A stretch of 28,932 bases of DNA, from positions 1 to 28,932 of the IMG/VR virus record IMGVR_UViG_3300001341_000036; one strand, given 5' to 3'. The position numbers and the translations under genes were made by a program. This DNA is from a virus. Positions within the stretch are counted from its first letter, which is position 1. Each line of letters starts with the position of its first letter. Of this stretch, positions 1 to 28,932 are shown piece after piece. The notes beneath the pieces were generated by a model, which saw nothing but the letters and a program-made list of their open reading frames with translations, was not told where the DNA came from and searched no databases.

Positions 1-63
1 GTCGCCGCCCGCATTGGCGGCACGCGCTTGATCGACAATATGGGAGTCTCTGCAAAGGGCTGA
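1..63 (+). CDS. panC: PanC C-terminal end (partial, host gene)
   Basis: The window opens inside a frame that ends at a TGA at 61-63. Its last 20 residues begin VAARIGGTRLIDN. This matches the conserved C-terminus of pantoate--beta-alanine ligase: the E. coli enzyme ends with VAAWLGDARLIDN followed by a few residues. PanC joins pantoate and beta-alanine with ATP in pantothenate (coenzyme A) synthesis and is a core chromosomal gene. It therefore marks host DNA at the left edge. Only the tail is visible, so the call rests on this short motif. A paralogous or phage-carried copy cannot be excluded but is unlikely. Confidence 0.8.
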   Translation, partial: VAARIGGTRLIDNMGVSAKG

Positions 64-157
64 GCGCCCTTGGCCGTTGTCTGGAGCGGGTAAGGGGAAT
101 CAACCACAAAAGTACCTTTTTGCGGATCGCGTGCTAGGAACCATCTGAGGGCACGCA
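64..157. other. Intergenic gap between panC and the accessory genes; possible prophage boundary
   Basis: This 94-base gap separates the host panC tail from the first accessory gene. I see no tRNA, integrase site or clear hairpin. A ribosome binding site (GAGGG) sits just before the ATG at 158. If the element is a prophage, the left attachment core could lie here or in the 3' end of panC. The matching right copy is outside the window, so it cannot be recognised. Confidence 0.3.
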
Positions 158-520
158 ATGATCACACTCCTAGTCAGCTTGGCAATGGCCACACAATGCA
201 CAGCAATTGATGGCGATAACATCCGCTGCGGCGACGAAAACATCCGGCTGATTGGGATCGACGCACCGGAACTGCGGGCATGCCCAAAGACTCGCAATTG
301 CGCGCCTGGTGATGGCCGGGCATCTAAGCGGTCTCTTGAGGGTCTGATCGCCGGTAAGCAGCTCAACATCGAGCGCGTGGGAAAAGATCGCTACGGCCGC
401 ACGCTGGCGATCGTGCATGCCGGCAAGCTCAATCTATCTTGTGCGCAAGTTTCGGCCGGTCAGGCGATCTATGTCGCCCGTTGGGATCGCGCCGGGCGCA
501 TTGCCGCATGCCTACCTTGA
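158..520 (+). CDS. Staphylococcal nuclease-like (thermonuclease) protein, probably exported
   Basis: This 120-aa protein has the SNase (TNase) fold signature. IDGDNIRC comes first, then IRLIGIDAPE at residues 29-38, and DRYGRTLAIV at 77-86. R30, D35, E38 and R81 align with the catalytic or calcium-binding R35, D40, E43 and R87 of staphylococcal nuclease with near-identical spacing. A short hydrophobic start (MITLLVSLAMA) suggests export, and the length fits a minimal SNase domain. The family cuts DNA or RNA in a calcium-dependent way. The ATG follows a GAGGG ribosome site by about six bases. It lies directly after panC in the same orientation, so it could be host or phage cargo. The domain call is strong; the role is unknown. 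Confidence 0.85.
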   Translation: MITLLVSLAMATQCTAIDGDNIRCGDENIRLIGIDAPELRACPKTRNCAPGDGRASKRSLEGLIAGKQLNIERVGKDRYGRTLAIVHAGKLNLSCAQVSAGQAIYVARWDRAGRIAACLP

Positions 521-521
521 T

Positions 522-689
522 ATGAGCGGCGTGGCACCACTTGCCGTCGGGTCATCGATACACCCTGGCGCCAGCGAGATCGAGAAATACAAAGCCGCCT
601 ATGATGCACTTGGCTATGTGATGACGTGGACCGAGGCAGATCCCGACAAGTGGGGAAAGGGCGCGCTCAAAGGCACTCGTAAGGCCTGA
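522..689 (+). CDS. Small hypothetical protein, 55 aa
   Basis: An ATG one base after the nuclease stop opens a 55-codon frame. The predicted peptide has a charged, helical middle (EIEKYKAAYDALGY) and a basic tail. There is no good ribosome site, so expression would depend on coupling to the nuclease gene. The frame also runs upstream to an earlier ATG at 417, but that would lie almost wholly inside the nuclease gene, so the short version is preferred. I recognise no family and it may not be real. Confidence 0.35.
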   Translation: MSGVAPLAVGSSIHPGASEIEKYKAAYDALGYVMTWTEADPDKWGKGALKGTRKA

Positions 690-746
690 CAGTTGCATTG
701 CCTCGGCAGCGGATTAGGTATGTCCGCAACAACGGGGAAGACTGCA

Positions 747-932
747 ATGATCGAAACGCTGCCAGATGATGTTGGGCCCGAACAGCGGATTGCGCTCGCT
801 GGAGTGTACGGACAAGCCTACGCGGCCGCGCAAAGAATGGGTCGGAAGCCACACGAATGCAGAGACGAAGCCGAGAGAGCCGTCATGGGTTGCTCGCAGT
901 TCGTGTTTGGCGTGGATGTGGGCCTGCCTTAA
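747..932 (+). CDS. Small hypothetical protein, 61 aa
   Basis: A 61-aa acidic, helical protein. I chose the ATG at 747 because a GGGGAAG ribosome site lies seven bases upstream; the same frame also has a TTG at 693 without one. Visible features are an Ala/Arg-rich helix (AYAAAQRMGRKPHECRDEAE) and a hydrophobic end (FVFGVDVGLP). It has no recognised domain. It ends 30 bases before the membrane-anchored HTH gene and probably shares its transcript. Confidence 0.5.
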   Translation: MIETLPDDVGPEQRIALAGVYGQAYAAAQRMGRKPHECRDEAERAVMGCSQFVFGVDVGLP

Positions 933-962
933 TCTCAGACCGTGCCAACCGATCAGAGCCCC

Positions 963-1457
963 ATGACCGCCGCCCAGGCAGAAGCTGAGCTGGACAAGCT
1001 CACGCCGAAGCAGCGCGAGTTTATGGAACTGGCGTGTAGGCCGGGCGGGATCACAACTAAGGAAATGGCCTTGGAGCTGGCAATCTCACCCAGCGCGGTC
1101 GATCAGCGCGCCAATGCGGCCCGCCTCAAGCTTGGTGTGCATGATGGCAATACCGCCGAAGCTGTGCGGATCTATATCGCGCTCAAGGCAGCCTGTGGGG
1201 TTTCTACAGGTGTGATTTCACAGGTAGGAAAGCCGGCATCTTTGATCGATGAACCGTGGCGTGACGACGAGGTGGAGAACCAAACTCTCTCGCTTCCGAG
1301 TCGCAGGGTTTCGATCAATCACCTGAACAACCGCCGTAGGATTTTGGCGATACCACTAATAGCAATTGCTGTGATGTCCGCCGTGATGGTGGTGGTCGCA
1401 ATGGCAGTCGCTCTAGCTCCCGGAGTGAGCAAATTGGTGGTGCTGTTCGGAGGTTGA
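963..1457 (+). CDS. LuxR/GerE-type HTH protein with C-terminal membrane anchor
   Basis: This 164-aa protein begins with a GerE-like DNA-binding domain at about residues 11-62. It has LTPKQREFMELA, then ITTKEMALELAISPSAVDQR with the typical recognition helix. A variable linker follows. Near the C-terminus, after NNRRRILAIP, there is a single hydrophobic helix of about 25 residues. The topology implied is HTH in the cytoplasm with the chain tethered to the inner membrane by its end. There is no receiver or ligand domain. Small LuxR-HTH proteins with a terminal membrane segment are familiar from sphingomonads, but their function is not established as far as I know. The ATG at 963 is preferred; a GTG at 942 would add seven residues, and neither has a strong ribosome site. 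It probably regulates its own cassette. Confidence 0.75.
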   Translation: MTAAQAEAELDKLTPKQREFMELACRPGGITTKEMALELAISPSAVDQRANAARLKLGVHDGNTAEAVRIYIALKAACGVSTGVISQVGKPASLIDEPWRDDEVENQTLSLPSRRVSINHLNNRRRILAIPLIAIAVMSAVMVVVAMAVALAPGVSKLVVLFGG

Positions 1458-1494
1458 TCTTCAAGCCCATAGGTTCAAACGCTTGGAGATATTC

Positions 1495-1812
1495 ATGCAG
1501 GAAAAATCGCCCCAACAGCAGATCGGTGACGCCTGTCACGCTGCGCGAAACCGCTCTGACGAGCAACTTATCGAGCTTGGCGCGTTGTTGACGAAGTCCG
1601 CGACGTTCGCCATGCACAACAGCGTCTCTGCCAAAGAGAAACACCGCACCTACTCGCAAATCGGCCAAGCCATCACAGCGACGATTGAGATGAACGAGAA
1701 AATTATGCTTGCGCATTTTTCGATGCAGAAGATCGCTGAGACGGCCGACGTTCCGTTCAATTGCCCGCCAGACAACGCCGAGGCCAAGCCAGACCTAAAG
1801 GTTGTAGCCTAA
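1495..1812 (+). CDS. Hypothetical soluble helical protein, 105 aa
   Basis: The ATG at 1495 sits six bases after a GGAG ribosome site. The predicted protein is almost entirely helical and soluble, with the stretch SDEQLIELGALLTKSATFAM and a long amphipathic middle. It ends in a loose Pro/Asp/Lys-rich tail. No signal peptide, membrane segment or known motif is seen. It lies 37 bases after the membrane HTH gene and one base before the first multi-pass gene, so it belongs to the same operon. A partner or modulator of the HTH protein is one possibility, but that is only an inference from position. Confidence 0.65.
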   Translation: MQEKSPQQQIGDACHAARNRSDEQLIELGALLTKSATFAMHNSVSAKEKHRTYSQIGQAITATIEMNEKIMLAHFSMQKIAETADVPFNCPPDNAEAKPDLKVVA

Positions 1813-1813
1813 C

Positions 1814-2344
1814 ATGTTGCCTGATTTCACCGAGCCAACGATTGTCGCTTTCTGGGCAATCTATTTCGGTGGGATCGGGCTTGCCTTGTGGAAAGGTGGA
1901 GCACCGGAGCGTTTGGGCGCAGGTGTGTTGCTGTTTTGCTTAGTCATACAGGCGATGGCGCACAGTATCGCACCCCCTGAGTTTGTTTCGGTCAATGTCG
2001 TAGCGTTCTTGGTTGATCTGATCAGCCTTACAGGATTCACGGCCATTGCGCTGCGTGCAGATCGCCAATGGCCATTGGTTGCGGCAGGGATAGCGCTTCT
2101 TGGCGCGGGCGCCCATGGGGCTAGGTCAATGCTGGATGTTGAATTTCATCCGTATGCCTATGTCCTCATGACGGTGCTTCCTACGCTTGTGATGAGCCTA
2201 TTGATTGGCGTCGGAACGATCCGGCATCAACTCAGGCTTCGGCGCGACGGATACGACCCAGACTTCACCGACCTCGAACTACTTAAGAACAAGCCCGAGG
2301 CGATCCCTCGGCGGAAGGTGAACGAAGATGAACAAGCCTCATAG
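1814..2344 (+). CDS. Multi-pass membrane protein, paralogue A
   Basis: This 176-aa protein begins MLPDFTEPTIVAFWAIYFGG. It has about four or five hydrophobic helices spread over residues 8-130, then a basic loop (RHQLRLRRDGYDPDF) and a charged tail, probably cytoplasmic. It is homologous along its length to the gene at 2730-3221, which starts MLPNFSDP. Both carry a DRQWP or NRKWP motif after the third helix and a Gly/His motif (GAHG or GTHF) in the next. It starts one base after the previous stop and overlaps the next gene by 17 bases, indicating translational coupling. I recognise no named family; superinfection exclusion is a guess from its position at a prophage end. Confidence 0.75.
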   Translation: MLPDFTEPTIVAFWAIYFGGIGLALWKGGAPERLGAGVLLFCLVIQAMAHSIAPPEFVSVNVVAFLVDLISLTGFTAIALRADRQWPLVAAGIALLGAGAHGARSMLDVEFHPYAYVLMTVLPTLVMSLLIGVGTIRHQLRLRRDGYDPDFTDLELLKNKPEAIPRRKVNEDEQAS

Positions 2345-2711
2345 AATTGCACCAGAACAGTTTTTCGAGACTGATTTCAGTGAGCTCAAAGCGGCCCATG
2401 ACCAGGGCTTCCTGGCCGGTTGGCATGCCAACACGCAATATCGCAAAGAGCATGCCGCGGCTCACACCCGACTATGGCTGGAATGGCCAATGATTATCTC
2501 CGGATCTCTGATCCTGGGCTTTATCGGACTGGCTCTGCTGGTCGCTCCATCGTCAAGCATCAATTGGCCGGTGACGATCTTGGCAACTCTGATTGGGACC
2601 ACCTTGGTTGTCGGCGGTGTCTGGTGGGGTTTCCAATCCAGCAAGGCTTATGCTCGCCGGATCGCAAAGTTCGCAAAGCGCTGGGAAGCTGCATTTGACG
2701 ATACCAAGTAG
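2328..2711 (+). CDS. Two-pass membrane protein, 127 aa
   Basis: This protein begins with a soluble, charged region of about 50 residues. Two hydrophobic helices follow (MIISGSLILGFIGLALLV and VTILATLIGTTLVVGG). The C-terminus is basic (SKAYARRIAKFAKRWEAAF). Both ends should be cytoplasmic. The ATG lies inside the end of the preceding membrane gene, so the two are probably coupled. No enzymatic motif is seen. It sits between the two paralogous multi-pass proteins, so it may form a complex with one or both; that is inference. Confidence 0.7.
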   Translation: MNKPHRIAPEQFFETDFSELKAAHDQGFLAGWHANTQYRKEHAAAHTRLWLEWPMIISGSLILGFIGLALLVAPSSSINWPVTILATLIGTTLVVGGVWWGFQSSKAYARRIAKFAKRWEAAFDDTK

Positions 2712-2729
2712 GATCGATTAGTCGGGGGC

Positions 2730-3221
2730 ATGCTGCCCAATTTCAGTGATCCCGGCATCCTAATGGTGTGGATTATAATCCTCACAACAGTCCTGTTCGG
2801 CTTGGTTGTCGACGGATGGACGAAGCGCCTCAGCCCCGAGCGCATGGCAAGCCTTGGCACGATTGCGGTGATCGCACTGCAGACGGCGTTGATCCAACCA
2901 ACCGGCAGGGACTTCGATGGCCGAGACTTCGACGCTTGGGCTGCCGACATTGCTATGTTCTTGACGTATGCGCTGTTGATGGTCAGCGCGAACCGGAAAT
3001 GGCCAATGTCTGCAGCAGCGTTTCAGCTGATGGCCATCGGCACGCATTTCGTCATGGTTTCAACGCCTAACATCAATGCTTGGGCGTGGGCTCAAATCAA
3101 TTTTGGCTGCTCTTTGGCCGCAACACTTTCTCATTTTGGCGGTTGCCTGAACTCCGCATTGAGGCGCTATCGCGGTGAGGCTATTCCTGACTGGGCTCCG
3201 TGGGCTCAGCGCCGACCATAG
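2730..3221 (+). CDS. Multi-pass membrane protein, paralogue B
   Basis: This 163-aa protein begins MLPNFSDPGILMVWIIIL and has about four membrane helices, with the motifs NRKWPMSAA and IGTHFVM. It resembles the protein at 1814-2344 in length, helix pattern and the N-terminal MLP(D/N)F(T/S)(E/D)P motif, so the two arose by duplication. Its basic end (LRRYRGEAIPDWAPWA) parallels the paralogue's LRRDGYDPDF. The last 41 bases overlap the 3' end of the opposing gene at 3181-3633. No known family is recognised. Confidence 0.75.
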   Translation: MLPNFSDPGILMVWIIILTTVLFGLVVDGWTKRLSPERMASLGTIAVIALQTALIQPTGRDFDGRDFDAWAADIAMFLTYALLMVSANRKWPMSAAAFQLMAIGTHFVMVSTPNINAWAWAQINFGCSLAATLSHFGGCLNSALRRYRGEAIPDWAPWAQRRP

Positions 3222-3633
3222 GCGCATCAAATACCTCGATCGCAGACGTAAAGAAGAAGATCGCCAGCGCGAGGCCGGCCAGCACTATTGTGTAGCCAGC
3301 AGCCAAACCGAACATCCAGGTGATCCGTGCCTGGATAGGGTGATCCTCCGCCCATTGCCGCCAACCTGGCAGGACCTCTAATCGAGCATCCGGCTCCGGT
3401 ACGGCATCGGGATTGATCGGCTCCAGATCGTAGTCATCGCGAAACGCAGCCTTCAATCGGTAGAGACTGTAGATCCCATAAGCATCTTTGACCGCGTTCA
3501 CGTGATGGCTGACGGTGGATTTGGAGACGCCAAGGAGTTCTGCCGCATCCTGATAGGTGTCGGTTTCGCACACGCGAATCATCACGTCGACTTGACGCTC
3601 AGTTAGATCAATCTGGCCTCGGTCGTTGGCCAA
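3181..3633 (-). CDS. LuxR/GerE-type HTH protein with C-terminal membrane helix
   Basis: This 150-aa protein has a GerE-type HTH at about residues 9-60: LTERQVDVMIRV, then YQDAAELLGVSKSTVSHHV. A Pro/Asp-rich linker follows, then one strong membrane helix at about residues 108-130 (GLAAGYTIVLAGLALAIFFF) and a short acidic tail. I chose a TTG start at 3633 because a GAGAGG ribosome site lies about five bases upstream. It has the same plan as the protein at 963-1457, but from the opposite strand and facing it across the membrane cassette. An ACCTGTAC copy lies 17 bases upstream of its start codon, which would fit autoregulation. Its membrane tether suggests response to an envelope signal, as inference. 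Confidence 0.75.
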   Translation of the reverse strand: MANDRGQIDLTERQVDVMIRVCETDTYQDAAELLGVSKSTVSHHVNAVKDAYGIYSLYRLKAAFRDDYDLEPINPDAVPEPDARLEVLPGWRQWAEDHPIQARITWMFGLAAGYTIVLAGLALAIFFFTSAIEVFDAPMVGAEPTEPSQE

Positions 3634-3649
3634 AATCGCCTCTCAATAG

Positions 3650-3733
3650 ACCTGTACGCAAGCCATGCGCCGGAAGAAACTATGCTCCAGAAACCGCAGA
3701 ATTCTGCGAATCCAGACCTGTACAAACCTGTAC
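3650..3733. promoter_or_regulatory. Divergent control region with three ACCTGTAC repeats
   Basis: The octamer ACCTGTAC occurs at 3650-3657, 3716-3723 and 3726-3733, all in the same orientation. The last two start 10 bases apart, about one helical turn, which suits side-by-side binding by one regulator. The first copy lies in the leader of the minus-strand HTH gene, the others before the plus-strand gene at 3813. No convincing -35/-10 pair could be fixed by eye. Confidence 0.5.
3695..3708. promoter_or_regulatory. Perfect 14-bp palindrome, candidate operator
   Basis: CGCAGAATTCTGCG reads the same on both strands. It lies in the gap between divergent genes, between the ACCTGTAC copies. Size and position fit a dimeric repressor or LuxR-type operator. 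Which protein binds it is not shown. Confidence 0.45.
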
Positions 3734-3812
3734 TTTCATTGTGCAGGTATGCAGCGATCGATTTTCCCGTCAAGCTTGTCTCTATCGAAATCGAAGACAG
3801 GAACCCCACCGC

Positions 3813-4061
3813 ATGACCGAGCAAATGACCGGGTTTGTGATCAGCCAAAGAGGCGAGGCACGATTGAACAACCTCGTTACCTGCCTGCGCGCCGTGGCGA
3901 GGCCCATTGCGGAGGCTGAACACAATGACGACGCGATACCCATCAGCGGCATAGAAGCCTCTGCCCTGCTCGATATGGCTGCGGACGCGATCGAGATCGA
4001 ACTGGCCAATGCCGGCTTCACGGTCGAGCCCGCGCCCGTCAAATTCGAACGGCTCGGCTAG
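3813..4061 (+). CDS. Hypothetical protein, 82 aa
   Basis: An acidic, mostly helical protein of 82 residues with Ala/Asp/Glu-rich helices (SALLDMAADAIEIELANAGF). An AGGAA ribosome site lies about nine bases before the ATG at 3813. A GTG at 3741 in the same frame would add 24 residues, but it sits beside the operator repeats. It is transcribed away from the minus-strand HTH gene and could be under the same operators. It ends with a TAG that overlaps the opposing lysis gene's TAG within one CTAG. No family is recognised. Confidence 0.55.
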   Translation: MTEQMTGFVISQRGEARLNNLVTCLRAVARPIAEAEHNDDAIPISGIEASALLDMAADAIEIELANAGFTVEPAPVKFERLG

Positions 4062-4423
4062 ATAAGGCCAAGGAATTTCGGCTCGGCGCGCTTAATCGCC
4101 TCGGCGTCGCGCTTCTCACAACGCTCCTGACCTTCAATGATCGCCTGCTTCTCTTCGAATTCCTGGCGCTTCGCTGCGGTCTGCGCGATGCCAAAGACCC
4201 GCCATCGATCAGTAATTTGCTCGACCCAAGCTGTGTAGGCTTCGGTGTTGCGATCGGCGTCTGGCTTTTCAGGCAATTGCGGCAGGGATGCACCAGGTAC
4301 CGCGTCCTTGAGTTGAGAGGGAATGAGGCCTGAACAGGGGGCCTTGTCGGTTATGACCGGCGGAGAGGTGATGCACCCAGCCAGACATGCGGACAGCAAA
4401 GGTAAAATGGTGAGCCGTTTCAT
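4058..4423 (-). CDS. Candidate outer-membrane spanin (Rz1-like lipoprotein)
   Basis: This 121-aa protein starts with a lipoprotein signal: a basic N-terminus, a hydrophobic stretch and the lipobox LAGC at about residues 13-16, so it should be lipid-anchored at that cysteine. After it come a Pro-containing segment (SGLIPSQLKDAVPGASLPQLP) split by charged residues, then a long charged helix. It starts at ATG 4423, which overlaps the preceding stop as TGATG, with AAGGAAG upstream. The upstream partner is a membrane-anchored coiled-coil protein, the normal order for Rz/Rz1 spanins that fuse inner and outer membranes at lysis. It is longer than lambda Rz1 (60 aa), so the role is likely but not certain. 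Confidence 0.55.
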   Translation of the reverse strand: MKRLTILPLLSACLAGCITSPPVITDKAPCSGLIPSQLKDAVPGASLPQLPEKPDADRNTEAYTAWVEQITDRWRVFGIAQTAAKRQEFEEKQAIIEGQERCEKRDAEAIKRAEPKFLGLI

Positions 4424-4773
4424 CACTCTTCCTTCTCACAATAGGCAGGATCGATCTCGCACATGGCCGCTGCAGCCAGCGAGTCCTTCTCGGCCTGGGT
4501 CTCAGCAGCGCTTATCGCCGCCTCTGTGGCCTCCACGACGCCCAGGTGTCGCTCCCGCGTCGCCTCGATCTCGGCGAGGTCTTCGAAGGCGTCCTGCGCA
4601 TTGCTGACGGCCGCGCCAGCACGCTCCGTCTCAATGTCTGCAATTACCTCTGTGTTGCCTACGATGAGGTCGCGCACAAAGCTTACAACAAGAACAACCA
4701 AGACGACGGTGATTAGGGCGCTGATGATGCGGCCGAGCGGGGTCAGCCCTTTGAAGAACTTGATCACTGGCAT
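4423..4773 (-). CDS. Candidate inner-membrane spanin (Rz-like)
   Basis: This 116-aa protein has one N-terminal membrane helix (IISALITVVLVVLVVSFV). An Ala/Glu-rich periplasmic coiled coil follows at about residues 40-100, ending in an acidic tail with two cysteines. This is the plan of an i-spanin, which bridges the inner membrane to the outer-membrane lipoprotein after the cell wall is cut. It sits between the desaturase-like gene, with which it shares a TGATG junction, and the lipoprotein gene, again with TGATG. Spanins diverge too fast for sequence-only identification; topology and order are the evidence. Confidence 0.55.
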   Translation of the reverse strand: MPVIKFFKGLTPLGRIISALITVVLVVLVVSFVRDLIVGNTEVIADIETERAGAAVSNAQDAFEDLAEIEATRERHLGVVEATEAAISAAETQAEKDSLAAAAMCEIDPAYCEKEE

Positions 4774-5303
4774 CAGGGTGTCTCCAGCTTTGTCACCGGA
4801 CGGATTCCGATCAGCGCGAGGCCGCGCTCAAGCCAATACCAGAATCGGATCAGTTCAAGCCAAGGGTTGAGCCAACCCGACAACGTGCAGTAGTGTGTCG
4901 TCATGCTTCCCCGGTGGTGGCGAGAATGCTGAGCGGGCCTTTGGAAGACACCCGTCTCCTGCAACGCCGATATCCATGCGGGACGAACAGCCTTGTGCGC
5001 CCAGGCATGGGTCTCATTGGCAAGACAGCCGCCTATCGTTGCGGCAAACCACGCCCAGGAGAAACCGAACGCTGCTAACCAGGCGAGCGATATTGGAGCA
5101 ACGGCCAACCAGGTGGTCCAGCTACGATCGAAGAATGAGCTGGCGAGGAATGCCTGCGGATCTGAGTGGTGCAATTCGTTGGGCGCCCCCACCAGAGCGC
5201 CTAGCAAGGGTGTGTTGCTGGTGATGAATTGGTCCTCGAACCAGTGAACGACACCGGAGAGAAAGTCCGCGATGAGCCAGCCAGTGAGCAGGAGCAGGAT
5301 CAT
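4773..5303 (-). CDS. CarF/PEDS1 (Kua, TMEM189)-type lipid desaturase-like protein
   Basis: This 176-aa membrane protein matches the lipid desaturase domain of plasmanylethanolamine desaturase (PEDS1/TMEM189) and bacterial CarF. The histidine motifs occur in family order: GVVHWFEDQF (H20), ELHHSDP (H45, H46), ETHAWAHK (H99, H103), HSRHH (H126, H129, H130) and THYCTLSGWLNP (H137). In known members these histidines bind a di-iron centre that makes the vinyl-ether bond of plasmalogens. Hydrophobic helices lie at about 1-20, 60-95 and 145-165. I chose the ATG at 5303 because a GAGGGAG ribosome site lies seven bases upstream and it overlaps the endolysin stop as ATGA; an ATG at 5333 has no such support. 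Its place between endolysin and spanins is unexpected. The fold call is strong; the substrate is unknown. Confidence 0.88.
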   Translation of the reverse strand: MILLLLTGWLIADFLSGVVHWFEDQFITSNTPLLGALVGAPNELHHSDPQAFLASSFFDRSWTTWLAVAPISLAWLAAFGFSWAWFAATIGGCLANETHAWAHKAVRPAWISALQETGVFQRPAQHSRHHRGSMTTHYCTLSGWLNPWLELIRFWYWLERGLALIGIRPVTKLETP

Positions 5304-5896
5304 ACCGAAACTCCCTCGATCGAACCCCACCATTCACGAACATCAAAGCAGGGGCAGGCTTTTGCGACACCTGGGTGATCGTTATGTCCAAGCACCTCGG
5401 CGGAGGGATAAGCGCATTTCAAGCCGCTCACCAGGCGAGCCATGGCGTCTTTCTGAGCGGCGGTTCTGGTGTCTTTGGGGTTGCCATTCGCGTCGAGACC
5501 GCCTGCATAGACGATCGCGATCGCACCTTCGTTGTGGTGGCGGACATGGATGCCGGTAACATCTTCATCGAGTCCGCGCTCGATCGTGCCATCAAGCTTG
5601 ATCAGGTAGTGATAGCCGACACGGCTCCAACCGCGGCCGTGAGGTTTGGGATCGGTATGCCACCGCGTGACCTCTTCAATGCTGACATCGCGACCTTCTG
5701 GCGTGGCAGTGCAATGGATGACGATGCGATCAATGTTGCGGCCAGTGCCCTGGACCAACGGGTCAGATGCGATGGCGGCTGTGTCGTCGCCGAGCGCTTC
5801 GAGCGCCTTGCGGGCGGTTTGTGGGCCGAACTTGCCGTCGACAGTGGCGCCGACGCGGCGCTGCAGCTGCCTGGTTAGTTCGCGCAATTCAGACAT
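5300..5896 (-). CDS. N-acetylmuramoyl-L-alanine amidase endolysin
   Basis: This 198-aa endolysin has an N-terminal peptidoglycan-binding-like helix bundle (VGATVDGKFGPQTARKALEA, residues 15-34). An Amidase_2 (T7 lysozyme/PGRP-like) domain follows from about residue 55. Zinc ligands and active-site residues can be matched to T7 lysozyme: H61 in VIHCTA, Y95 in VGYHYLI, H171 in GHNDH, K179 and C181 in KACPCFDV. The enzyme cuts the bond between muramic acid and L-alanine. There is no signal peptide, so it needs a holin; two small membrane proteins lie directly upstream. A GAGGAG ribosome site precedes the ATG by eight bases. Confidence 0.93.
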   Translation of the reverse strand: MSELRELTRQLQRRVGATVDGKFGPQTARKALEALGDDTAAIASDPLVQGTGRNIDRIVIHCTATPEGRDVSIEEVTRWHTDPKPHGRGWSRVGYHYLIKLDGTIERGLDEDVTGIHVRHHNEGAIAIVYAGGLDANGNPKDTRTAAQKDAMARLVSGLKCAYPSAEVLGHNDHPGVAKACPCFDVREWWGSIEGVSV

Positions 5897-5947
5897 GACG
5901 GGTTCTCCTCAATTACAAGGATTGAAGGCGGGAAATTTGGGCATCGC

Positions 5948-6223
5948 TCAGTTAAAGAGCGGGCAGGTCTCACGGCGCTTGCGCCACACCCAAAGGAACG
6001 CAAAGACAAGCATCGCAACATGGGCGGTGTCGAATATCCAGCGGAAGTGGGGCAGCATCGCTGGGTCAAACCAGAACAGCATTCGGCCGGTGCCGAACAG
6101 CATGACGGTTACAGCAAGCAACCAACACATCCAGCGATCGATGCCGTCCCTGTCAATCGAAGCCGCGTGCCATAAAAGCACCAGCGATGCCGGAAGATAG
6201 AGGAGCCAAATTAATTCGATCAT
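5948..6223 (-). CDS. Small three-helix membrane protein, holin candidate
   Basis: This 91-aa protein has about three hydrophobic helices and a basic end (WVWRKRRETCPLFN). I chose the ATG at 6223 because it overlaps the preceding stop as ATGA and follows GAGGAGAGGG; the frame also runs further upstream through the neighbouring gene, which is less likely. Size, helix count and position just before the endolysin fit a class I-type holin, but holins cannot be identified from sequence alone. Confidence 0.6.
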   Translation of the reverse strand: MIELIWLLYLPASLVLLWHAASIDRDGIDRWMCWLLAVTVMLFGTGRMLFWFDPAMLPHFRWIFDTAHVAMLVFAFLWVWRKRRETCPLFN

Positions 6224-6588
6224 TGGCCCTCTCCTCGTTTCCAGGGCAGGGACATGTTGCCGCTCGCTGCTCGGCGGGCGAGCCACGGCGAAGCGAGTCC
6301 TGCAACCCCCATTACCAGCGGCAAGGGCAATGCAGAGACCCAACCGATCCACGCACCGCCTGCAGCGAAGTGAGGGTGTGCCATCCCGGCAAACGCACCA
6401 ATCACCATCGCAACGACAACGGTTAGGGGTAGCGTCAGGCGTTCGGTTGGTGGACTCACAACCATGCCGACAAATCCTCCCGCCACCGCAAAGAACATGC
6501 CGGCGACGATATACGGCCAGGGCGCGGCAAAGCCGAGCGCCCCGGTGATCAGCGCCATATAGCCGCTGAACTTGGCTTCAGGTATCAA
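6220..6588 (-). CDS. Small multi-pass membrane protein, holin or antiholin candidate
   Basis: The protein has about four hydrophobic helices (for example PYIVAGMFFAVAGGFVGMVV) and a short charged end. Two starts compete. A TTG at 6588 has a GGAGAG ribosome site five bases upstream and lies 67 bases after the tail-fibre gene, giving 122 aa. An ATG at 6675 has no ribosome site and overlaps the previous gene by 20 bases, giving 151 aa. I prefer the TTG. Its neighbour at 5948-6223 is coupled by ATGA. Together the two look like the membrane part of the lysis module. Confidence 0.6.
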   Translation of the reverse strand: MIPEAKFSGYMALITGALGFAAPWPYIVAGMFFAVAGGFVGMVVSPPTERLTLPLTVVVAMVIGAFAGMAHPHFAAGGAWIGWVSALPLPLVMGVAGLASPWLARRAASGNMSLPWKRGEGQ

Positions 6589-6655
6589 CAGGTCTCTCCA
6601 GAATGGTGCGACCGAAATTTGGTCACCTTTGGTGTTTTCAGCACTGCATCGAGTG

Positions 6656-7321
6656 TCAGAAAAGCGCCTCTTCATCGATAAGCAGTTGCGAGAGCTGGGT
6701 CGGATCGGTCAGCGCAAGGGGTTCGCCGAATATGTCCACGCCAGTTATGATCGTATCATCGAGATAGTCGAGCCGGTGCCCGCCAATCTGGAATTCGGGC
6801 CAGCTCGCCCATGGGGTAGCTGTTCCGATCTGGGAAACGGGGGTGTTGCCAGGCGTTTGGCAATAGCTGGTCCGTGTGCGCGAGACGAACGTGAATGCTG
6901 CAACGAACGGGTCTGTGCCGTTGTTCGGAATCTCGCCGGTTGGTGTGTAGCCGCTGCTGGCGTTCGGATAGAACGCTTGACCGCGCTGGCCGTTGTAACG
7001 GCAAGACCAGGTGTTCGTATTCGTTCTTGTGCCGCCTGCGAATTCTTTGGTGCCGCCGCCTGAATTGACGCGGCCTGCAACGACAATGGTGAAGTCGCGC
7101 GGACTGCGCATCCGTCCGCGAATTGTCTCCGTGACGTCATCGCTGAACAACATGCCCTCAAGATTGCCAACGCTTGCAAACGTCGGTGTCGCACCGTTGA
7201 CGACAAGATCACCGCCGCCGGCAACCAGGTTGGTGAGCGTACCGCCGGCACCGCCGCTGTAATTGGCTTGCGACAGGCGAAAGCCGCCCCAGTGCCTGAG
7301 AAAGTCGCTTGGAACTACCAT
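6656..7321 (-). CDS. LamG/concanavalin-like tail adhesin (putative)
   Basis: A 221-aa Gly/Thr/Asn-rich, beta-strand-dominated protein without membrane segments. The strand pattern DFTIVVAGRVNSGGG and the closing segment DIFGEPLALTDPTQLSQLLI resemble LamG-like lectin modules, which commonly end with a strand, a short turn of the 'aLTd.e...L' type and a helix. Such modules bind glycans. It starts immediately after the stop of the esterase-like gene (TAG then ATG) and precedes the lysis genes, the usual location of receptor-binding proteins. The LamG assignment is a pattern match by eye, hence moderate confidence. Confidence 0.5.
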   Translation of the reverse strand: MVVPSDFLRHWGGFRLSQANYSGGAGGTLTNLVAGGGDLVVNGATPTFASVGNLEGMLFSDDVTETIRGRMRSPRDFTIVVAGRVNSGGGTKEFAGGTRTNTNTWSCRYNGQRGQAFYPNASSGYTPTGEIPNNGTDPFVAAFTFVSRTRTSYCQTPGNTPVSQIGTATPWASWPEFQIGGHRLDYLDDTIITGVDIFGEPLALTDPTQLSQLLIDEEALF

Positions 7322-8644
7322 CTATGCCACCGTCCATTTGTCGACACACAGGAAGTTAGGCATCGCAGTGCTGTCGTTTGTTGTGGTGAATGCGCTGGAA
7401 TCGCGGACGGTGCCGCGAGGCCCATTCACTGGGCCGGCCCGAACATTGATCGTGTTGTTATGATAGGCATATTCGAGATCGCCAGAGACGGCGGCGTCCA
7501 GCTCGATCTCGATCGTGCCTGTGTTGGTGCCAGTTCCATCGTCCGTGATGTCGACATTCGTGATGCTTGCCACCGTGTGGTTGAAGCCATGATTGTCGAT
7601 TGCAGTGATCAACGACGTGTCGAAAACCAGCGGGGGAACCGGGACGTGGACGGTAACCGTGATAGTCGTCCCAGAACGCTGAACATCGGTGATGTGGCAG
7701 GGATCCCAACCGATTGCCGCCACAACGGCGTCAAAGGCCTCCTTGATCTTCTCACCGTAGTTGCGAGACGTATTTGATAGCAGGTGAACGTCTGCACCGC
7801 TGTTGCAGTGGGCGAGCGGATAGCGCGGACCAACGCAAGCGAATTTGTCTGGATGTTCGCGGTGGAGCTCGATCGCTGCGACCGCCAGTTCAGCATACGT
7901 TGTGCTGTTCTGGCCCATGCCCTGCTGGTCGATGATCATCTTCCAATTGAACGGCATTTCAATGCCGGTTTGGGCGGGGATGCAATCAACGAATTCTTGG
8001 TGAAGCGCCAGGATTCCGGTCTTCCAATCGGCCGGCGCGGTGTTGTTCAGTGCGTCGGCCGCGCCCTGAATGAAGATCATTGGACCCAAGCCGTATGTCT
8101 CGCCGGCATCTTCAGTCAGTCGCTTGGAATGCTCAATCGCCGACAGGGTGTTGGCAAAATGGAACCAACCCGTGTCCTCGCCATCAATCGGTCTGAGTTG
8201 GTCGATTGTGTAGGCGCCGCGCCCCGTAACAGTTGCCACCAGGTCGTAAGACGATCGAGTGGCCAAGCCCGACGCGAAGGTCTCCTGCATCTGGCTGTCA
8301 TTCGGATTCACTTGCTCCTGAAGCGCGACAAGAGAGGTGAACTGCGTCCCTTCCATTGGTTGGTTCGGATTGGTGCGGCCAGGTTCGTCATAGTGAACCC
8401 GAACGCCGCCATTCGCCATGAACGAACCCGACACCGCAGCGCCTGTTATCAGCGCGGCGGCGGTGACGTCCGTCCCCAATGTGAGCGATTGGCCATAGAA
8501 ATGCGCGCCAGTTCGATCCGTCGGCACTGGCAATGGTGTGTTTGGGGCAAACCTAATTGCATAGTCTGGCGCCGCTTCCCAGACGATCGTCGCCTGGATC
8601 GGAACACCTTGAGGTGCCAGTATCAAGGGGCGGCGAACACTCAT
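7322..8644 (-). CDS. Tail-associated SGNH/sialate-O-acetylesterase-like protein
   Basis: This 440-aa protein has a short N-terminal part (about 1-45) that likely attaches to the tail, then an SGNH-hydrolase-like region. HFYGQSLTLG (G51-S53) has the block I nucleophile serine. IFIQGAAD (about 191-197) is in the place of the QGESD block of the SASA esterase family. GADVHLLSNTSRNYGEKI (283-300) carries the Asp-x-His pair (D285, H287). A C-terminal beta-rich domain follows (about 315-440). The family removes acetyl groups from sugars, so a role in trimming surface polysaccharide during adsorption is plausible. The ATG at 8644 overlaps the preceding stop (ATGA); a longer upstream start is rejected. 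The Glu-to-Ala change in QGESD leaves activity uncertain. Confidence 0.65.
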   Translation of the reverse strand: MSVRRPLILAPQGVPIQATIVWEAAPDYAIRFAPNTPLPVPTDRTGAHFYGQSLTLGTDVTAAALITGAAVSGSFMANGGVRVHYDEPGRTNPNQPMEGTQFTSLVALQEQVNPNDSQMQETFASGLATRSSYDLVATVTGRGAYTIDQLRPIDGEDTGWFHFANTLSAIEHSKRLTEDAGETYGLGPMIFIQGAADALNNTAPADWKTGILALHQEFVDCIPAQTGIEMPFNWKMIIDQQGMGQNSTTYAELAVAAIELHREHPDKFACVGPRYPLAHCNSGADVHLLSNTSRNYGEKIKEAFDAVVAAIGWDPCHITDVQRSGTTITVTVHVPVPPLVFDTSLITAIDNHGFNHTVASITNVDITDDGTGTNTGTIEIELDAAVSGDLEYAYHNNTINVRAGPVNGPRGTVRDSSAFTTTNDSTAMPNFLCVDKWTVA

Positions 8645-9042
8645 AGGTTTACAGCTCCGCGCACAGGCTGAATGCCAGCAGCCAAGGTGTAGCGGACGCC
8701 GCCGGCCGGCGTGCAATCGATCTCGTAAACCAGATCGAGCACGAACGTGCTGTCAGCGTCTGCAGGAATGTTTGTCTGATCAGCCGCCAAGAGCTGCAGA
8801 GTTACGGGTGTGACGCCATTCGCAAATGCCCCTGGTGAGCAATTGAATGTCGCCAACGGATCGCCTGGTGCATCGGGCGCCAGTCGCACATTCATAACGA
8901 AAGCGGCCGCACTGAAGTCACCAGCAAGCTCAAGCGTGACGGTGTGATCCTTGCCTCTGGGAATTGCAGGCATTTCCGCCTTGGGGCCGCCCAAGCCGTC
9001 ATTCTGCAGCTGAAGAAGCCACTCTTGCAATTGTGAAGTCAT
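8641..9042 (-). CDS. Small beta-rich tail or baseplate protein
   Basis: A 133-aa protein with the strand pattern HTVTLELAGDFSAAAFVMNV followed by RLAPDAPGDPLATF. It recalls the N-terminal beta-sandwich of baseplate proteins that carry receptor-binding modules (BppU-like), but I am not sure of this. An AGAAGG ribosome site lies seven bases before the ATG. It is placed between the tail-tip protein and the esterase-like adhesin and overlaps the latter by four bases, so it may connect the two. Confidence 0.55.
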   Translation of the reverse strand: MTSQLQEWLLQLQNDGLGGPKAEMPAIPRGKDHTVTLELAGDFSAAAFVMNVRLAPDAPGDPLATFNCSPGAFANGVTPVTLQLLAADQTNIPADADSTFVLDLVYEIDCTPAGGVRYTLAAGIQPVRGAVNL

Positions 9043-9075
9043 CGCTCTGCCTTCTGAGAATGGCGCCGCGCGCCG

Positions 9076-11022
9076 TTAGCTGTACCAATCATCTTCTTGG
9101 ACGCCTGGAGGAATGGCCCCGCCACCGCTCGACCCACCGCCGCCAAGCGCATCGGTCACCACGCGCGCGACATTGTGGCGATATGGATGTTCCTGAGAGT
9201 TCACCGCGTCTGCCAGGACTTGCGTGGCCTTAATCGTCACACCGCTGCCGCTGCGCGAACTGTCATCGTAATAGAGGTGATAGACCGTCTCGGCTGCCAA
9301 CGGCGTCGTGCCGTCGTCTTCGGTGGTGATCGTTGCGGCGGCGATTGAGGTTGCCTTGTCGGAATAGGTCCGGGTGTGAGCCTCAACATCGATCGAGGTG
9401 TCAGTCGCCGACCACAGACCATCCATTGGGTCGAGATCGGTGACATAGGAGTTCGTGATCAATTGACTGGTGAGCGGTGCCTGAATCTGATTGGCAGCCA
9501 CCAATCGGTCGATATCCTCACCGCTGGCAGTCGGCGGCGCGGTCGGCAAAACACCGCTGACAACGCCGGCCGCGACGTGCTTGTCGTCATCCTCCTCTAC
9601 GAAGGTCGCCTGAATGGTCGCGCTGATCGGATCGATTTGCCTACGCGTCATCCGCACTTTCATCGCCACGCCAGTGGGTGATAGTTCCGCGTCCAGGGTT
9701 AGCGCGTCGCCAGGCACATAGGCCTTCAAGTGGGGTTTGAGCGGCAGATTGATCGCGCCCAAGGCCCGCCGTTCATAGAGCTCGTAAATTGCCAGCTCGG
9801 CGCCCTGATCAACGTCGGTGACCAGTTCGTACTTGACCTCGTCGATCTTCTCTTCGCCATCTTCGGTGACAAAGGACGCAACTGACACCGGGTCGGATTG
9901 CGGATAATCCCAGTTGTGGGCCTCGCTGCGGACACGGAAGATGATCGTGTTGTGACGCGATTTCCAATTGCTGCCGAGCTGGTCGCGCAAACCACCCGGA
10001 GCAATGTCGTCACGGGTGATCGTGGCGAGGCTGATGCGTGGGGCTTGGTAGTCAAAGCGCAGAACGCCGCCGATCAGAACAGGCTTGGCGCCGCCTGCAA
10101 TCGCGATGCGCTTCAGGTTGTCCCACTTAGATCCGGGCTCGTAGATTTCGCCGCCAAGGGTCCAACCATTGGCGTCGCAGACATTGGCCCACGCCACCAA
10201 ATTGGCGAGATCAATTGCCGCCGAGCCGAGATTGCCGCCAAATACCAGTTTGCCATTCTCAAAGCGGCCATAGGCATAGGCGAGCGCATGTAGTGCGGGA
10301 TTCTGGCTGTATGCCCAAGTGGTTTCATCATCGATCCGCTGCGAGCCCGATCCGCCTGGATAGGTGCTATCGAGCCGGGGATCGTACACGCGAACACCGC
10401 GCCAAATGGCTCCGATGACCGGCAGTTGGCCGCCAGCAAATATCTCGCCATCCTTGTCGAACAACAGAGAATGCGCGAGCGCCGCCTTGCCGGAGAGCTT
10501 ATAGCTCGCCCCCCAGCTGGGTACACCTGACCATTGCGCATCAAGTGCGGCCACCTCTGGCTGTTCACCGAGTTGATAGTCGCGATACCAGTGATCTTCG
10601 TAATATCCGGTCGCGGCCGCCAAAGCCGGCGTGCTGGTCGCGAATGACACCGTGGCGAAATTGGCCTGGACCGCCTCCAGCGCGTCAACTGGTCCCGCAC
10701 ACGAATGAACCGTGGTCATCATGCGATAGGGGTTTTCGACCCCATCAACTTCGCCGCCCCAGCCAATGTCATGAACCTGGACGCCGCCAGAGTAACATCG
10801 ACCCATCAGATAGGGCATTGGATTGTTGGCGCCGATCACCCGGTCATTGACGCTGCCTTTGGCGCGCGCTGATCGCGGGGAGGCTACCAGCTCTGAAAGG
10901 CCACCTGCGACAACAGAAACCGCGCCGGCGATGGCAGCGACAGCCTGACCGCCAGGCACAAAGGCGGCTACGCTCGCGACGGCGCCAGCGACAACGCCGA
11001 CTGCGCGAAAGACACCTGCCAT
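9076..11022 (-). CDS. Tail tip/central hub protein (lambda gpJ-like role)
   Basis: This 648-aa protein starts with an Ala/Val/Gly-rich hydrophobic segment (about 1-50). Then comes ANNPMPYLMGRCYSGGVQVH, a segment typical of phage tail-hub proteins. Residues about 290-480 include the hub-like passage YEPGSKWDNLKRIAIAGGAK and the strand-rich LKAYVPGDALTLDAELSP. The C-terminus is Gly/Ser-rich, with GGGGSSGGG just before the end. Size, order after the peptidase-like gene and content fit the baseplate hub at the tail tip, equivalent to lambda gpJ or GTA gp15. It would cap the tape measure and hold the adhesins encoded downstream. Confidence 0.75.
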   Translation of the reverse strand: MAGVFRAVGVVAGAVASVAAFVPGGQAVAAIAGAVSVVAGGLSELVASPRSARAKGSVNDRVIGANNPMPYLMGRCYSGGVQVHDIGWGGEVDGVENPYRMMTTVHSCAGPVDALEAVQANFATVSFATSTPALAAATGYYEDHWYRDYQLGEQPEVAALDAQWSGVPSWGASYKLSGKAALAHSLLFDKDGEIFAGGQLPVIGAIWRGVRVYDPRLDSTYPGGSGSQRIDDETTWAYSQNPALHALAYAYGRFENGKLVFGGNLGSAAIDLANLVAWANVCDANGWTLGGEIYEPGSKWDNLKRIAIAGGAKPVLIGGVLRFDYQAPRISLATITRDDIAPGGLRDQLGSNWKSRHNTIIFRVRSEAHNWDYPQSDPVSVASFVTEDGEEKIDEVKYELVTDVDQGAELAIYELYERRALGAINLPLKPHLKAYVPGDALTLDAELSPTGVAMKVRMTRRQIDPISATIQATFVEEDDDKHVAAGVVSGVLPTAPPTASGEDIDRLVAANQIQAPLTSQLITNSYVTDLDPMDGLWSATDTSIDVEAHTRTYSDKATSIAAATITTEDDGTTPLAAETVYHLYYDDSSRSGSGVTIKATQVLADAVNSQEHPYRHNVARVVTDALGGGGSSGGGAIPPGVQEDDWYS

Positions 11023-11037
11023 GATCCGCGTCCTGCC

Positions 11038-11472
11038 CTACAATTTCCACGCTGCGATGATCTCGGTCTCAGCGAGCTTGATCACACTCATTTTTGAAAG
11101 ATCGCTGCCATGCCAGGCAAAGACATTGCCGCGCCCATCAGCGATCCCAATCGCGGCCAGCACGTCGTCGCGCTCGCCATCTCGATCGCCAGGCAGGACC
11201 ACCAGATCACCCAGCTCAGCAAAGGCCGGTGCTGGGTGACGCTCAAACCACTTGTCGAGTAGTTCAGCTGTGCTGCGAACACCCTGCTTGCGAAGAGCCT
11301 TGATCGCACCACGTTCGCTCGCGAAGAGCGGAACGGGCGGAACCTGGTGGCCCATGTTGATGGCCTGCTTTCGCGCTAGCTTGATGCAATTTGCACCTTT
11401 CCAGCTCAGCGGCTTGTCCCGAAACTTGGCGAGCGTCTTTTCGGTCGGATGGAGATGCGCGTCTTTGATCAC
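11038..11472 (-). CDS. Putative NlpC/P60-like (DUF6950-type) tail protein
   Basis: This 144-aa protein is read from a GTG at 11472 that overlaps the preceding stop as GTGA. The frame continues upstream, but the residues there look like out-of-frame translation of the neighbour. LSWKGANCIKLARKQA (about residues 22-37) places a cysteine at the start of a helix, as in NlpC/P60-type proteins. FAELGDLVVLPGDR and VFAWHGSDLS follow, and the protein ends IIAAWKL. Order after the DUF2163-like gene and before the tip protein equals that of the peptidase in lambda and gene transfer agents, where it cuts cell wall during DNA entry. A catalytic His is not clearly assigned, so it may be structural only. 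Confidence 0.55.
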   Translation of the reverse strand: MIKDAHLHPTEKTLAKFRDKPLSWKGANCIKLARKQAINMGHQVPPVPLFASERGAIKALRKQGVRSTAELLDKWFERHPAPAFAELGDLVVLPGDRDGERDDVLAAIGIADGRGNVFAWHGSDLSKMSVIKLAETEIIAAWKL

Positions 11473-12095
11473 AGCAAGCTCGGTGTTGGTGAGTTGGGAT
11501 CTGTGAAACCCCCGCCGCGCGTACTGGTGCCTGTGGGTGGTGCGGCCGCACCCCATGCGACCGGCACCGGCGTATCTGTGCAATTGTTGAAGCCATCTTC
11601 GCCTGCCCAGACGCTCTTGTGAAAGCGCTCGCTGCAAACGTTGCCCTGGTTCGTCAAGAACAGCCGTTCAGCTCGTCCGCTCAGTTCCATAGCAAGCGTC
11701 AATTCACCCTCGGCAGATATCTCACGCGCTGGCACGTCAACCAGCATATCGGCAAGCAGCTCAGCATTGCTCGCAACTCCCGTCTCGCGGTCGACTTCGC
11801 CAAGCCAGAACTTAACTGCGGAATCGCGCAGAGCCGGAGTGTACCAATCTGTCAGGACCGCATCGGGATGCGGGTGAAAGGCAATCGACGCGCTTTCCGC
11901 GACATCGCCAAAGGCGGCCTCGAACGCATCCATCTCGGCAATCGAGCCAAACACGGAATGTTCAGATTCGAAGGTCTCAAGGCCGCTTCCATCATCGAAC
12001 TTCAGAAAACCGCCATCACAGATGCGCACAGTCCCACTCGGCGCCTCAAGCGTCATGAATGCGGCCATCGTGACCACTCGATCAGTGCCGCTCAT
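11469..12095 (-). CDS. Tail protein, DUF2163-like position
   Basis: A 208-aa, strand-rich protein. The first half contains GTVRICDGGFLKFDDGSG. The middle (NAELLADMLVDVPAREISAE, then LTLAMELSGRAERLF) resembles the alternating strands of tail adaptor proteins. The last part has two cysteines (about 157 and 173) and WAGEDGFNNCTDTPVPVAWG. Its place between the distal-tail-like protein and the peptidase-like protein matches the DUF2163 (GTA gp13-like) slot. The ATG overlaps the upstream stop (ATGA) and a GAGAG ribosome site lies five bases away. Family assignment is from context more than from clear motifs. Confidence 0.55.
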   Translation of the reverse strand: MSGTDRVVTMAAFMTLEAPSGTVRICDGGFLKFDDGSGLETFESEHSVFGSIAEMDAFEAAFGDVAESASIAFHPHPDAVLTDWYTPALRDSAVKFWLGEVDRETGVASNAELLADMLVDVPAREISAEGELTLAMELSGRAERLFLTNQGNVCSERFHKSVWAGEDGFNNCTDTPVPVAWGAAAPPTGTSTRGGGFTDPNSPTPSLL

Positions 12096-12694
12096 CGCAT
12101 CTCTCGGATCGTGAATTGGAAACCGCGCGCGAGGCGCGAAACATCGGTGAAGTGGCCTGCGTCTTCAGCACCGCCAAGCCGGCCCTCAATGTAAACCGAA
12201 GCGAACTCCAGCACGTCGCCATCAGATGGCGGCGCGCGAAGGGCTGGCACGATGGGTAGGTCGACCTCTCCGTTAGCGTCTGCGCGGGCAGCTGCATTCG
12301 CGCGATAGCAGTAGCGCTGGCCGCCCGAGATCAAGGAGAAGAACTTTCCCTTACGGATCGCATAACCGGGATTGAAGCCACGGCAGGCAAGCGTGCTGCC
12401 GGCCTGTCCGTTGCCGTCGACCACCGGACTACCTGGCGAGCCACCCGGCATGCCAACCTGGCGAATTCTGTAGCGCACGAGATTGTCGAGCCCATCAGTC
12501 AGGACCACCGACCACTCGGCCGCAACTTCCGGATCCATTCGTGGAAGTTGCACCGATATCTGCCATTTTGATCCAAGTCGGTTAATCCGCGTCTCGGCGC
12601 CACCAAGCGGGCCTTGCTGGTTGCTTCCGAAATTGATCGGCAACCAGCCTTCATCGGCCGGGCCAGGCGACGTGGGAAGATCGACCACAGCCAT
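12092..12694 (-). CDS. Distal tail-like structural protein
   Basis: A 200-aa protein rich in Gly, Pro and beta strands. It includes SKWQISVQLPRMDPEVAAEW, a Gly-rich loop (GMPGGSPGSPVVDGNGQAG) and the ending FQFTIREMR. No membrane segment is present. It directly follows the tape measure gene with a TGATG junction, the usual place of the distal tail or adaptor protein that joins tube to tip. I recognise the type from phage tail operons but cannot give a precise family. Confidence 0.55.
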   Translation of the reverse strand: MAVVDLPTSPGPADEGWLPINFGSNQQGPLGGAETRINRLGSKWQISVQLPRMDPEVAAEWSVVLTDGLDNLVRYRIRQVGMPGGSPGSPVVDGNGQAGSTLACRGFNPGYAIRKGKFFSLISGGQRYCYRANAAARADANGEVDLPIVPALRAPPSDGDVLEFASVYIEGRLGGAEDAGHFTDVSRLARGFQFTIREMR

Positions 12695-28147: not shown

Positions 28148-28818
28148 TTTTCACCCTCCCAAGCTTCAAGACAGATCGGCGCGACAGTCCGCGCAAGCTC
28201 ACGCAGCGCATCGGCGTAAACTCGGATTTCATACTGCGCATGCTCATCACATCGCAGCGTGAGGAACTTCATCAGATTGAGCAGATTGACGGTCGCGAAC
28301 ATCGTCGAATAGGTGCCAACGGGAAGCACAGAGCGGGCAAGCTCGCGCGCGACCCCCGCCCTGATCAATTCGCGATAGTCGACAAAGGCAGCGGCGTTCG
28401 AATCGCGGATTTGTTCTTGAACCTGCATGGCCTGCGCGCCGCCTAGGGCGCTGCCCCGCCCCTGCTTGTTGCTCATGGATTGGGCGCAAATGTTCTCAAC
28501 GTCCGGCACATAGAACTCGTCAGGCAGCTCACGATATCGCGCGCTCAACTCATTGAATGACCATGTCCGATGGCGATGCCATTGCCGAAAAACGAAGATC
28601 GGCGCATGCACTTCAAACGTCAGCGTCACCGCCTCGAACGGCGTCGTGTGATGGTGCGACCAGAGGTAATGGATCAAGCGATGATCGCTGCCTTGGTCCT
28701 CTCCTGCACGCCACGCCGCATCGTATGAAACACGGGCGGCACGCACGACACTCAAGTCGCCGCCCATTGAATCAACCAGCCTCACATAGCCATGGTCAAG
28801 CACATCAACCCGCTGCAT
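28144..28818 (-). CDS. thyX: Flavin-dependent thymidylate synthase
   Basis: A 224-aa ThyX. The signature RHRxxSxNExSxRY is found as RHRTWSFNELSARY at residues 82-95. PVGTYSTMFATVNLLNLMKF and LRCDEHAQYEIRVYA form the later substrate and FAD regions. The enzyme makes dTMP from dUMP using FAD and methylenetetrahydrofolate. The ATG at 28818 has GGAGG seven bases upstream and overlaps the previous stop as TGATG; a GTG at 28821 is adjacent. It likely raises the dTMP supply for phage replication along with DUF3310 and the primase. Confidence 0.95.
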   Translation of the reverse strand: MQRVDVLDHGYVRLVDSMGGDLSVVRAARVSYDAAWRAGEDQGSDHRLIHYLWSHHHTTPFEAVTLTFEVHAPIFVFRQWHRHRTWSFNELSARYRELPDEFYVPDVENICAQSMSNKQGRGSALGGAQAMQVQEQIRDSNAAAFVDYRELIRAGVARELARSVLPVGTYSTMFATVNLLNLMKFLTLRCDEHAQYEIRVYADALRELARTVAPICLEAWEGEK

Positions 28819-28931: not shown

Positions 28932-28932
28932 T

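Follow-up and report, generated by a model that had tools for sequence, protein, structure and literature searches.

A conserved triad of helix-turn-helix, helical-hairpin and five-helix membrane protein genes at a prophage end, with a putative role in membrane-tethered transcription control

The IMG/VR virus record IMGVR_UViG_3300001341_000036, analysed here over its whole 28,932 bp (positions 1 to 28,932; hereafter the window), carries phage genes on its minus strand (terminase, portal, capsid, tape measure, amidase and thymidylate synthase) and, near one end, a six-gene cassette at 963-3633. We favour, at somewhat better than even confidence, the reading that this cassette is a prophage-borne copy of a conserved membrane-tethered transcription-control module, consisting of a helix-turn-helix (HTH) protein, a soluble helical protein (SOL) and a five-helix membrane protein (5TM), accompanied by a diverged 5TM/HTH pair and an orphan two-helix protein (2TM). 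This reading builds on the protein classes, the operon order, the joint inheritance of the genes, their presence on chromosomes, plasmids and phages, and the position at a prophage end, all of which were observed.

All six open reading frames (ORFs) are present and uninterrupted, as a first-pass annotation made from the letters of the window had described them. The triad comprises HTH1 (963-1457, plus strand), with an N-terminal HTH and a C-terminal membrane helix, SOL (1495-1812, plus strand, ATG at 1495), a soluble helical hairpin of 105 amino acids (aa), and 5TMa (1814-2344, plus strand), a five-helix membrane protein. Hidden Markov models (HMMs) rebuilt without any window sequence (window-free HMMs) matched the three at E = 2.5e-23 (full length), 2.2e-14 and 6e-45, respectively, and the module, defined as HTH, SOL and 5TM encoded in succession on the same strand, is found at 963-2344. 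They are followed by 2TM (2328-2711, plus strand), which lies between both 5TM genes, by 5TMb (2730-3221, plus strand; window-free HMM E = 4e-21), a strongly diverged second 5TM copy, and by HTH2 (3181-3633, minus strand; window-free HMM E = 1.1e-13), a strongly diverged second HTH copy that is convergent with 5TMb and has a TTG start after GAGAGG. SOL and 5TMa almost touch, 5TMa and 2TM overlap, and HTH2 shares 41 bp with the end of 5TMb. As had been proposed, the multi-pass proteins 5TMa and 5TMb are paralogues, with 24% identity (E = 4e-9) and shared matches to window-free HMMs; in the tree 5TMb sits in a clade shared with 5TMa, and both 5TMb and HTH2 are found on very long branches. HTH2 aligns to its window-free HMM over HTH, linker and membrane helix, and a BLAST comparison matched it to the HTH protein of a plasmid triad (E = 2e-9). 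By sequence comparison five of the six proteins are members of one conserved module and 2TM is not, and the prophage holds a full triad (HTH1, SOL and 5TMa) plus the diverged 5TMb/HTH2 and the orphan 2TM.

The first-pass annotation had made its proposal of an undescribed unit depend on homologues occurring together, and they nearly always do: among 102 5TM ORFs (window included; locus counts here and below come from simple ORF calling on a redundant locus set), a same-strand HTH gene was found within 2 kb upstream for 98, a SOL gene for 89 and both for 88, and HTH and SOL were both present in 20/20 regions of the order survey described below. Moreover, the pairwise distances of HTH, SOL and 5TM correlate with r of 0.84-0.88 (65 non-redundant triads), a correlation reached in 0/1000 permutations. 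HTH, SOL and 5TM are therefore inherited together, and it is this triad, not the six-gene block, that is conserved. A fourth gene encoding a winged HTH (wHTH) protein, alone or fused to RadC/JAB, lies downstream in 69 of the 94 loci with room for it; no window ORF matches it convincingly (best E = 0.03), and the prophage is without it.

The proposal that the genes are undescribed also held for the proteins themselves. Neither SOL nor 5TM has a describing family in Pfam, NCBIfam, PHROG or PADLOC, and scans of these four libraries gave weak generic HTH matches for HTH1 and HTH2 and chance-level matches for the other proteins. The membrane proteins found no convincing PHROG match, and 2TM gave a marginal PADLOC match (E = 0.04), the PADLOC and PHROG libraries containing described families only. 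Relatives of 2TM were absent from the plasmids and viral contigs searched, and no description of the trio was found in the literature searched.

Searches with single window proteins against viral contigs, phage records and genome contigs returned nothing beyond a sister contig of the window. A tblastn search with 5TMa detected 14 plasmids, all from Sphingomonadales, in which the genes are annotated in a single operon as a ‘helix-turn-helix transcriptional regulator’ and hypothetical proteins of ~110 and ~150 aa, and using the plasmid sequences as seeds led to 52 genome loci. A profile from all 13 5TM proteins was too diverse for scanning, and a closer subset worked; a profile search detected 5TM in 150 of 296 Sphingomonadales species sampled. 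A phylum-wide draw matched 20 of 398 genomes, 11 of them already in the Sphingomonadales survey and nine grouping apart as a clade of their own in a RecA tree; these results overturned the idea that the module is restricted to Sphingomonadales. Most of the nine also have the HTH-SOL-5TM triad, in some cases with two copies of SOL and 5TM, and because flagellar genes adjoin one of these loci the second alphaproteobacterial order is probably Caulobacterales. Several genomes of this second order (loci L132, L133, L180, L181 and L185) have a doubled SOL and/or 5TM gene and no recognised adjacent HTH gene. A second phage contig (IMGVR_UViG_3300044445_000198, locus L131) encodes a phage integrase, a Cro/C1-type repressor, the triad and, at its end, terminase-like genes; its triad belongs to a different clade than that of the window, and phages therefore acquired the module at least twice. 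Most copies of the module sampled in Sphingomonadales and the second order are chromosomal and others are plasmid-borne, and the module is thus not phage-specific; the membrane-linked control function first proposed for the cassette fits these data, a phage-specific one does not.

Hydropathy analysis revealed a single helix near the C-terminus of both HTH proteins (residues 133-149 in HTH1 and 116-132 in HTH2), followed by about 8-25 residues in these two and their relatives, and the layout of HTH plus C-terminal helix is constant through the family alignment. The same analysis gave five helices for 5TMa, two for 2TM and no hydrophobic helix for SOL, whose AlphaFold2 model shows two long helices (6-41 and 46-83) with a predicted local distance difference test (pLDDT) score of 89.4; family members of SOL are ~110 aa long. 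These data bear out the membrane helices of the HTH proteins, the soluble helical SOL and the two-pass 2TM of the first-pass annotation, whose label ‘LuxR-HTH’ stands at superfamily level only, with GerE scores of 17.3 and 19.2 bits for the two HTH proteins falling below the curated Pfam cut-off of 23.5. The best Pfam matches, Sigma70_r4_2 for HTH1 and HTH_1 for HTH2, were also below cut-off, and the matches of HTH1 comprise Sigma70_r4_2, Sigma70_r4, HTH_10 and GerE. The AlphaFold model of 5TMa consists of five long helices (pLDDT 89.6; predicted template modelling score 0.80), and conserved motifs and residues of the family (5TMa numbering) are GGxPE (E32), D68, RxWP (R84), H101 and R141. A fold search of 5TMa against the PDB returned generic helical bundles, with cytochrome b561 among tied rows, and was uninterpretable. 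Against a viral structure library the model resembled uncharacterised proteins of 140-170 aa from large phages (best phiCbK, E = 4e-3, TM-score 0.55); phiCbK has no sequence match to the 5TM profile, making this structural likeness a lead only.

We propose that the tail-anchored HTH protein is held at the inner membrane and would bind DNA beside its own operon, with 5TM acting as the putative sensor of membrane or envelope state: its conserved charged and polar residues (listed above) look like a ligand- or signal-binding set. The SOL hairpin may couple HTH and 5TM, or may keep the HTH protein inactive. DNA binding, signal and targets of the module are predictions; in the prophage, the module would most likely autoregulate and adjust neighbouring phage or host genes, and HTH2 and 5TMb could provide a second, possibly antagonistic, output.

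The genes and DNA next to the triads point to local transcription control, as far as sequence can. In divergent orientation to the triad, 24 of 83 loci (redundant) carry a gene for a TrbB-type ATPase of a conjugation operon, and in the 11 non-redundant trbB-HTH intergenic regions compared (L016, L019, L027, L028, L033, L034, L036, L043, L044, L048 and L051) the blocks TAAGAGACGCA, TTCAACA and GAAAGACAGG are kept and the rest has diverged. These blocks (TAAGAGACGCA, TTCAACA, GAAAGACAGG...TGGCGTAG) are also candidate control sites of the conjugation genes. In 11 loci (L111, L112, L114, L115, L117, L120, L123, L124, L125, L127 and L129) the triad lies upstream of a PhoR-like sensor kinase gene and pstSCAB-type genes; these loci form one chromosomal lineage, several of them have Ku/LigD genes on the opposite flank, and the DNA upstream of their triads holds no conserved motif. 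In one genome (L135, G192:C22, 3173-8397) the triad is directly downstream of a gene for a PspF-type sigma-54 activator and adjoins pspA and small membrane genes, a context that raises a possible link to envelope stress. In the window, a candidate operator (3648-3733) upstream of HTH2 consists of three copies of (A/G)ACCTGTAC, at 3648, 3714 and 3724, two of them 10 bp apart. Exact ACCTGTAC occurs three times in the window, nowhere else than upstream of HTH2, against an expected 0.09, and three copies were reached in 0/100 shuffles. Candidate sequences for HTH binding are AGACCTGTAC in the prophage and TAAGAGACGCA/GAAAGACAGG in the trb-HTH intergenic DNA. A scan for sigma-70 promoters found nothing, and no motif shared by the upstream DNA of all triads emerged, conservation being confined to lineages.

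Two plasmid copies adjoin a VapC-type toxin locus, and the small co-transcribed genes on plasmids and prophages, with a membrane protein under an HTH regulator, would also suit a toxin-antitoxin or abortive-infection unit in which 5TM is a membrane-acting toxin, repressed and neutralised by HTH and SOL. We consider such a unit improbable, as single-copy triads with a stable linkage to phoR-pst occur on chromosomes, SOL and 5TM proteins match no PADLOC model, and the HTH protein is itself membrane-anchored, which is unusual for an antitoxin.

The position of the cassette at a prophage end, claimed from the start, was confirmed by the attachment-site junction at 82-118, where a repeat of a tRNA-Gly 3'-end, TGGAGCGGGTAAGGGGAATC, is followed by the phage arm AACCACAAAAGTACC, with an inverted arm copy at the other prophage end. 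That other end is seen in the sister contig (IMGVR_UViG_3300027607_000009, G001), which shows full identity to the window over the compared parts (3105-13333 and 28594-28932) and continues beyond it, its far end carrying a tRNA-Gly(TCC) gene (54-127) and then a gene for a 551-aa serine integrase (phrog_95, E = 2e-81). The 3' end of this tRNA-Gly(TCC) gene recurs at window 82-105 (24-25 bp match to G001:103-127). On the phage side, the arms of both ends, AACCACAAAAGTACC and GGTACTTTTGTGG, are mutual inverted copies (window 100-118 versus G001 124-142), as expected for the attP of a serine integrase. The tRNA repeat and the inverted arms at both ends therefore place the start of the cassette ~0.85 kb inward of the prophage end. 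The cassette lies past the lysis genes, and nothing but a nuclease-like gene and a small ORF separates it from that end. A related phage, G002, has 80% DNA identity to the window over the lysis region and no match to window 1-3700; a gene for an HTH-metallophosphatase-like fusion and a nucleotide-kinase-like gene, read from sequence, take the place of the cassette there (L004, 9326-11143), and the cassette region is therefore accessory. Elsewhere on the prophage, a gene for a DNA polymerase sliding clamp (phrog_947, E = 2e-53) was seen in the sister contig (L008, 7359-8771, plus strand). A Lipid_desat gene (PF10520, TMEM189/CarF-type, E = 1e-36) at window 4773-5333 (minus strand) within the lysis cassette overlaps the amidase gene by 34 bp, touches the inner-spanin gene, is 90% identical in the related phage and has no PHROG match; for a lipid-modifying enzyme carried by a phage, a place among the lysis genes seems unusual.

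An alternative explanation is that a host-type regulator was captured as cargo (a moron) that acts on host genes and benefits lysogen fitness, with no role in the phage programme. About half of the species sampled carry the same triad on the chromosome, the related phage carries other genes at this place, and the prophage has a CI/S24-type repressor of its own at the opposite end, all of which would suit such cargo. The prophage copy, however, is highly diverged from other triads (best identity of 5TMa 39%) and comes with the extra 5TMb, HTH2 and 2TM, suggesting adaptation to the element, and we regard pure cargo as rather unlikely; it differs from the reading as a prophage-borne control module in the targets, the kind of device being the same. 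The first-pass annotation had suggested superinfection exclusion, and multi-pass membrane proteins that block incoming phage DNA or plasmids under control of the HTH proteins might be expected here, since exclusion genes occur at prophage ends and beside trb genes, where these multi-pass proteins are also found, and since 2TM and 5TMb are special to the prophage. This suggestion found no support, and we judge superinfection or entry exclusion very improbable: we saw no sign of an exclusion effector, the usual neighbours being trb, phoR-pst or psp genes, the membrane proteins have no match of meaningful score among the described families of PHROG and PADLOC, the commonest form of the module is chromosomal and occurs in half of an order's species, and exclusion would not call for a conserved HTH-SOL-5TM trio next to genes for phosphate uptake.

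Several considerations weigh against membrane-tethered transcription control as well. DNA binding, signal, interaction and target are predicted for every member of the module, and 5TMb and HTH2 may have lost their function and be in decay. The tail past the membrane helix of the HTH proteins is minimal, so that a ToxR-style periplasmic sensor domain is missing, and the PDB holds no informative match to the modelled 5TM fold. Neighbour genes vary from one lineage to another, which may reflect a difference in targets or no more than synteny, and their counts inherit the simple ORF calling and the redundancy of the locus set.

About half of the Sphingomonadales species sampled have the unnamed three-gene unit, and it also occurs in a second order, probably including Caulobacter relatives, with neighbours from conjugation, phosphate uptake, envelope stress and phages. 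If it is a membrane-tethered switch, it would be a widespread signalling device that escaped notice owing to the small size and rapid evolution of its proteins, and since plasmids and prophages carry it, the reading of the host membrane by mobile elements would become directly testable. More tentatively, and with doubts prevailing, the HTH regulator, helical coupler and five-helix sensor could form a mobile signalling module common to alphaproteobacterial chromosomes, conjugative plasmids and prophages, which ties the transfer or lysogeny genes of the elements to the membrane state of the host and in which the diverged HTH/5TM pair is a built-in antagonist.

Regulators that are tethered to the membrane and accompanied by a partner gene form an established class (PMC10269533, PMC9214523). 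Like the co-component systems VtrA/VtrC, ToxR/ToxS and PsaE/PsaF, the module is a compact, fast-evolving cassette in which a DNA-binding domain would be placed on the inner membrane via one helix and a partner from the same operon is thought to sense (PMC9214523), and HTH1 and HTH2 indeed have a predicted N-terminal DNA-binding domain followed by one membrane helix. In co-component systems, however, a periplasmic domain is part of the DNA-binding chain and a lipocalin-like protein with one helix serves as the partner (PMC9214523), whereas the module combines an HTH of the Sigma70_r4/GerE kind and a minimal periplasmic tail with an all-helical soluble hairpin and a five-helix membrane protein as partners. 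Neither HTH protein matched Trans_reg_C in Pfam at E up to 1, which leaves them without a winged domain of the OmpR/Trans_reg_C type, and the about 8-25 residues after the helix leave no folded periplasmic domain. Because these defining features (wHTH type, periplasmic domain and lipocalin-like partner) are not found, the module is not a member of the co-component systems. It likewise resembles one-component transmembrane transcription regulators such as CadC, which are membrane-anchored and act from the membrane (PMC10269533), but these unite sensor and DNA-binding parts in one protein, whereas sensing by the module would need separate gene products; neither ‘LuxR’ nor ‘GerE’ occurs in the text of PMC10269533. 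With the LuxR/GerE family it shares an HTH of the GerE/sigma-region-4 kind, but in the module the HTH is N-terminal, its GerE score stays below the curated cut-off for membership, a C-terminal membrane helix follows, and no autoinducer or receiver domain was found. Thus, the module is new as a described unit and of a general kind that is already known.

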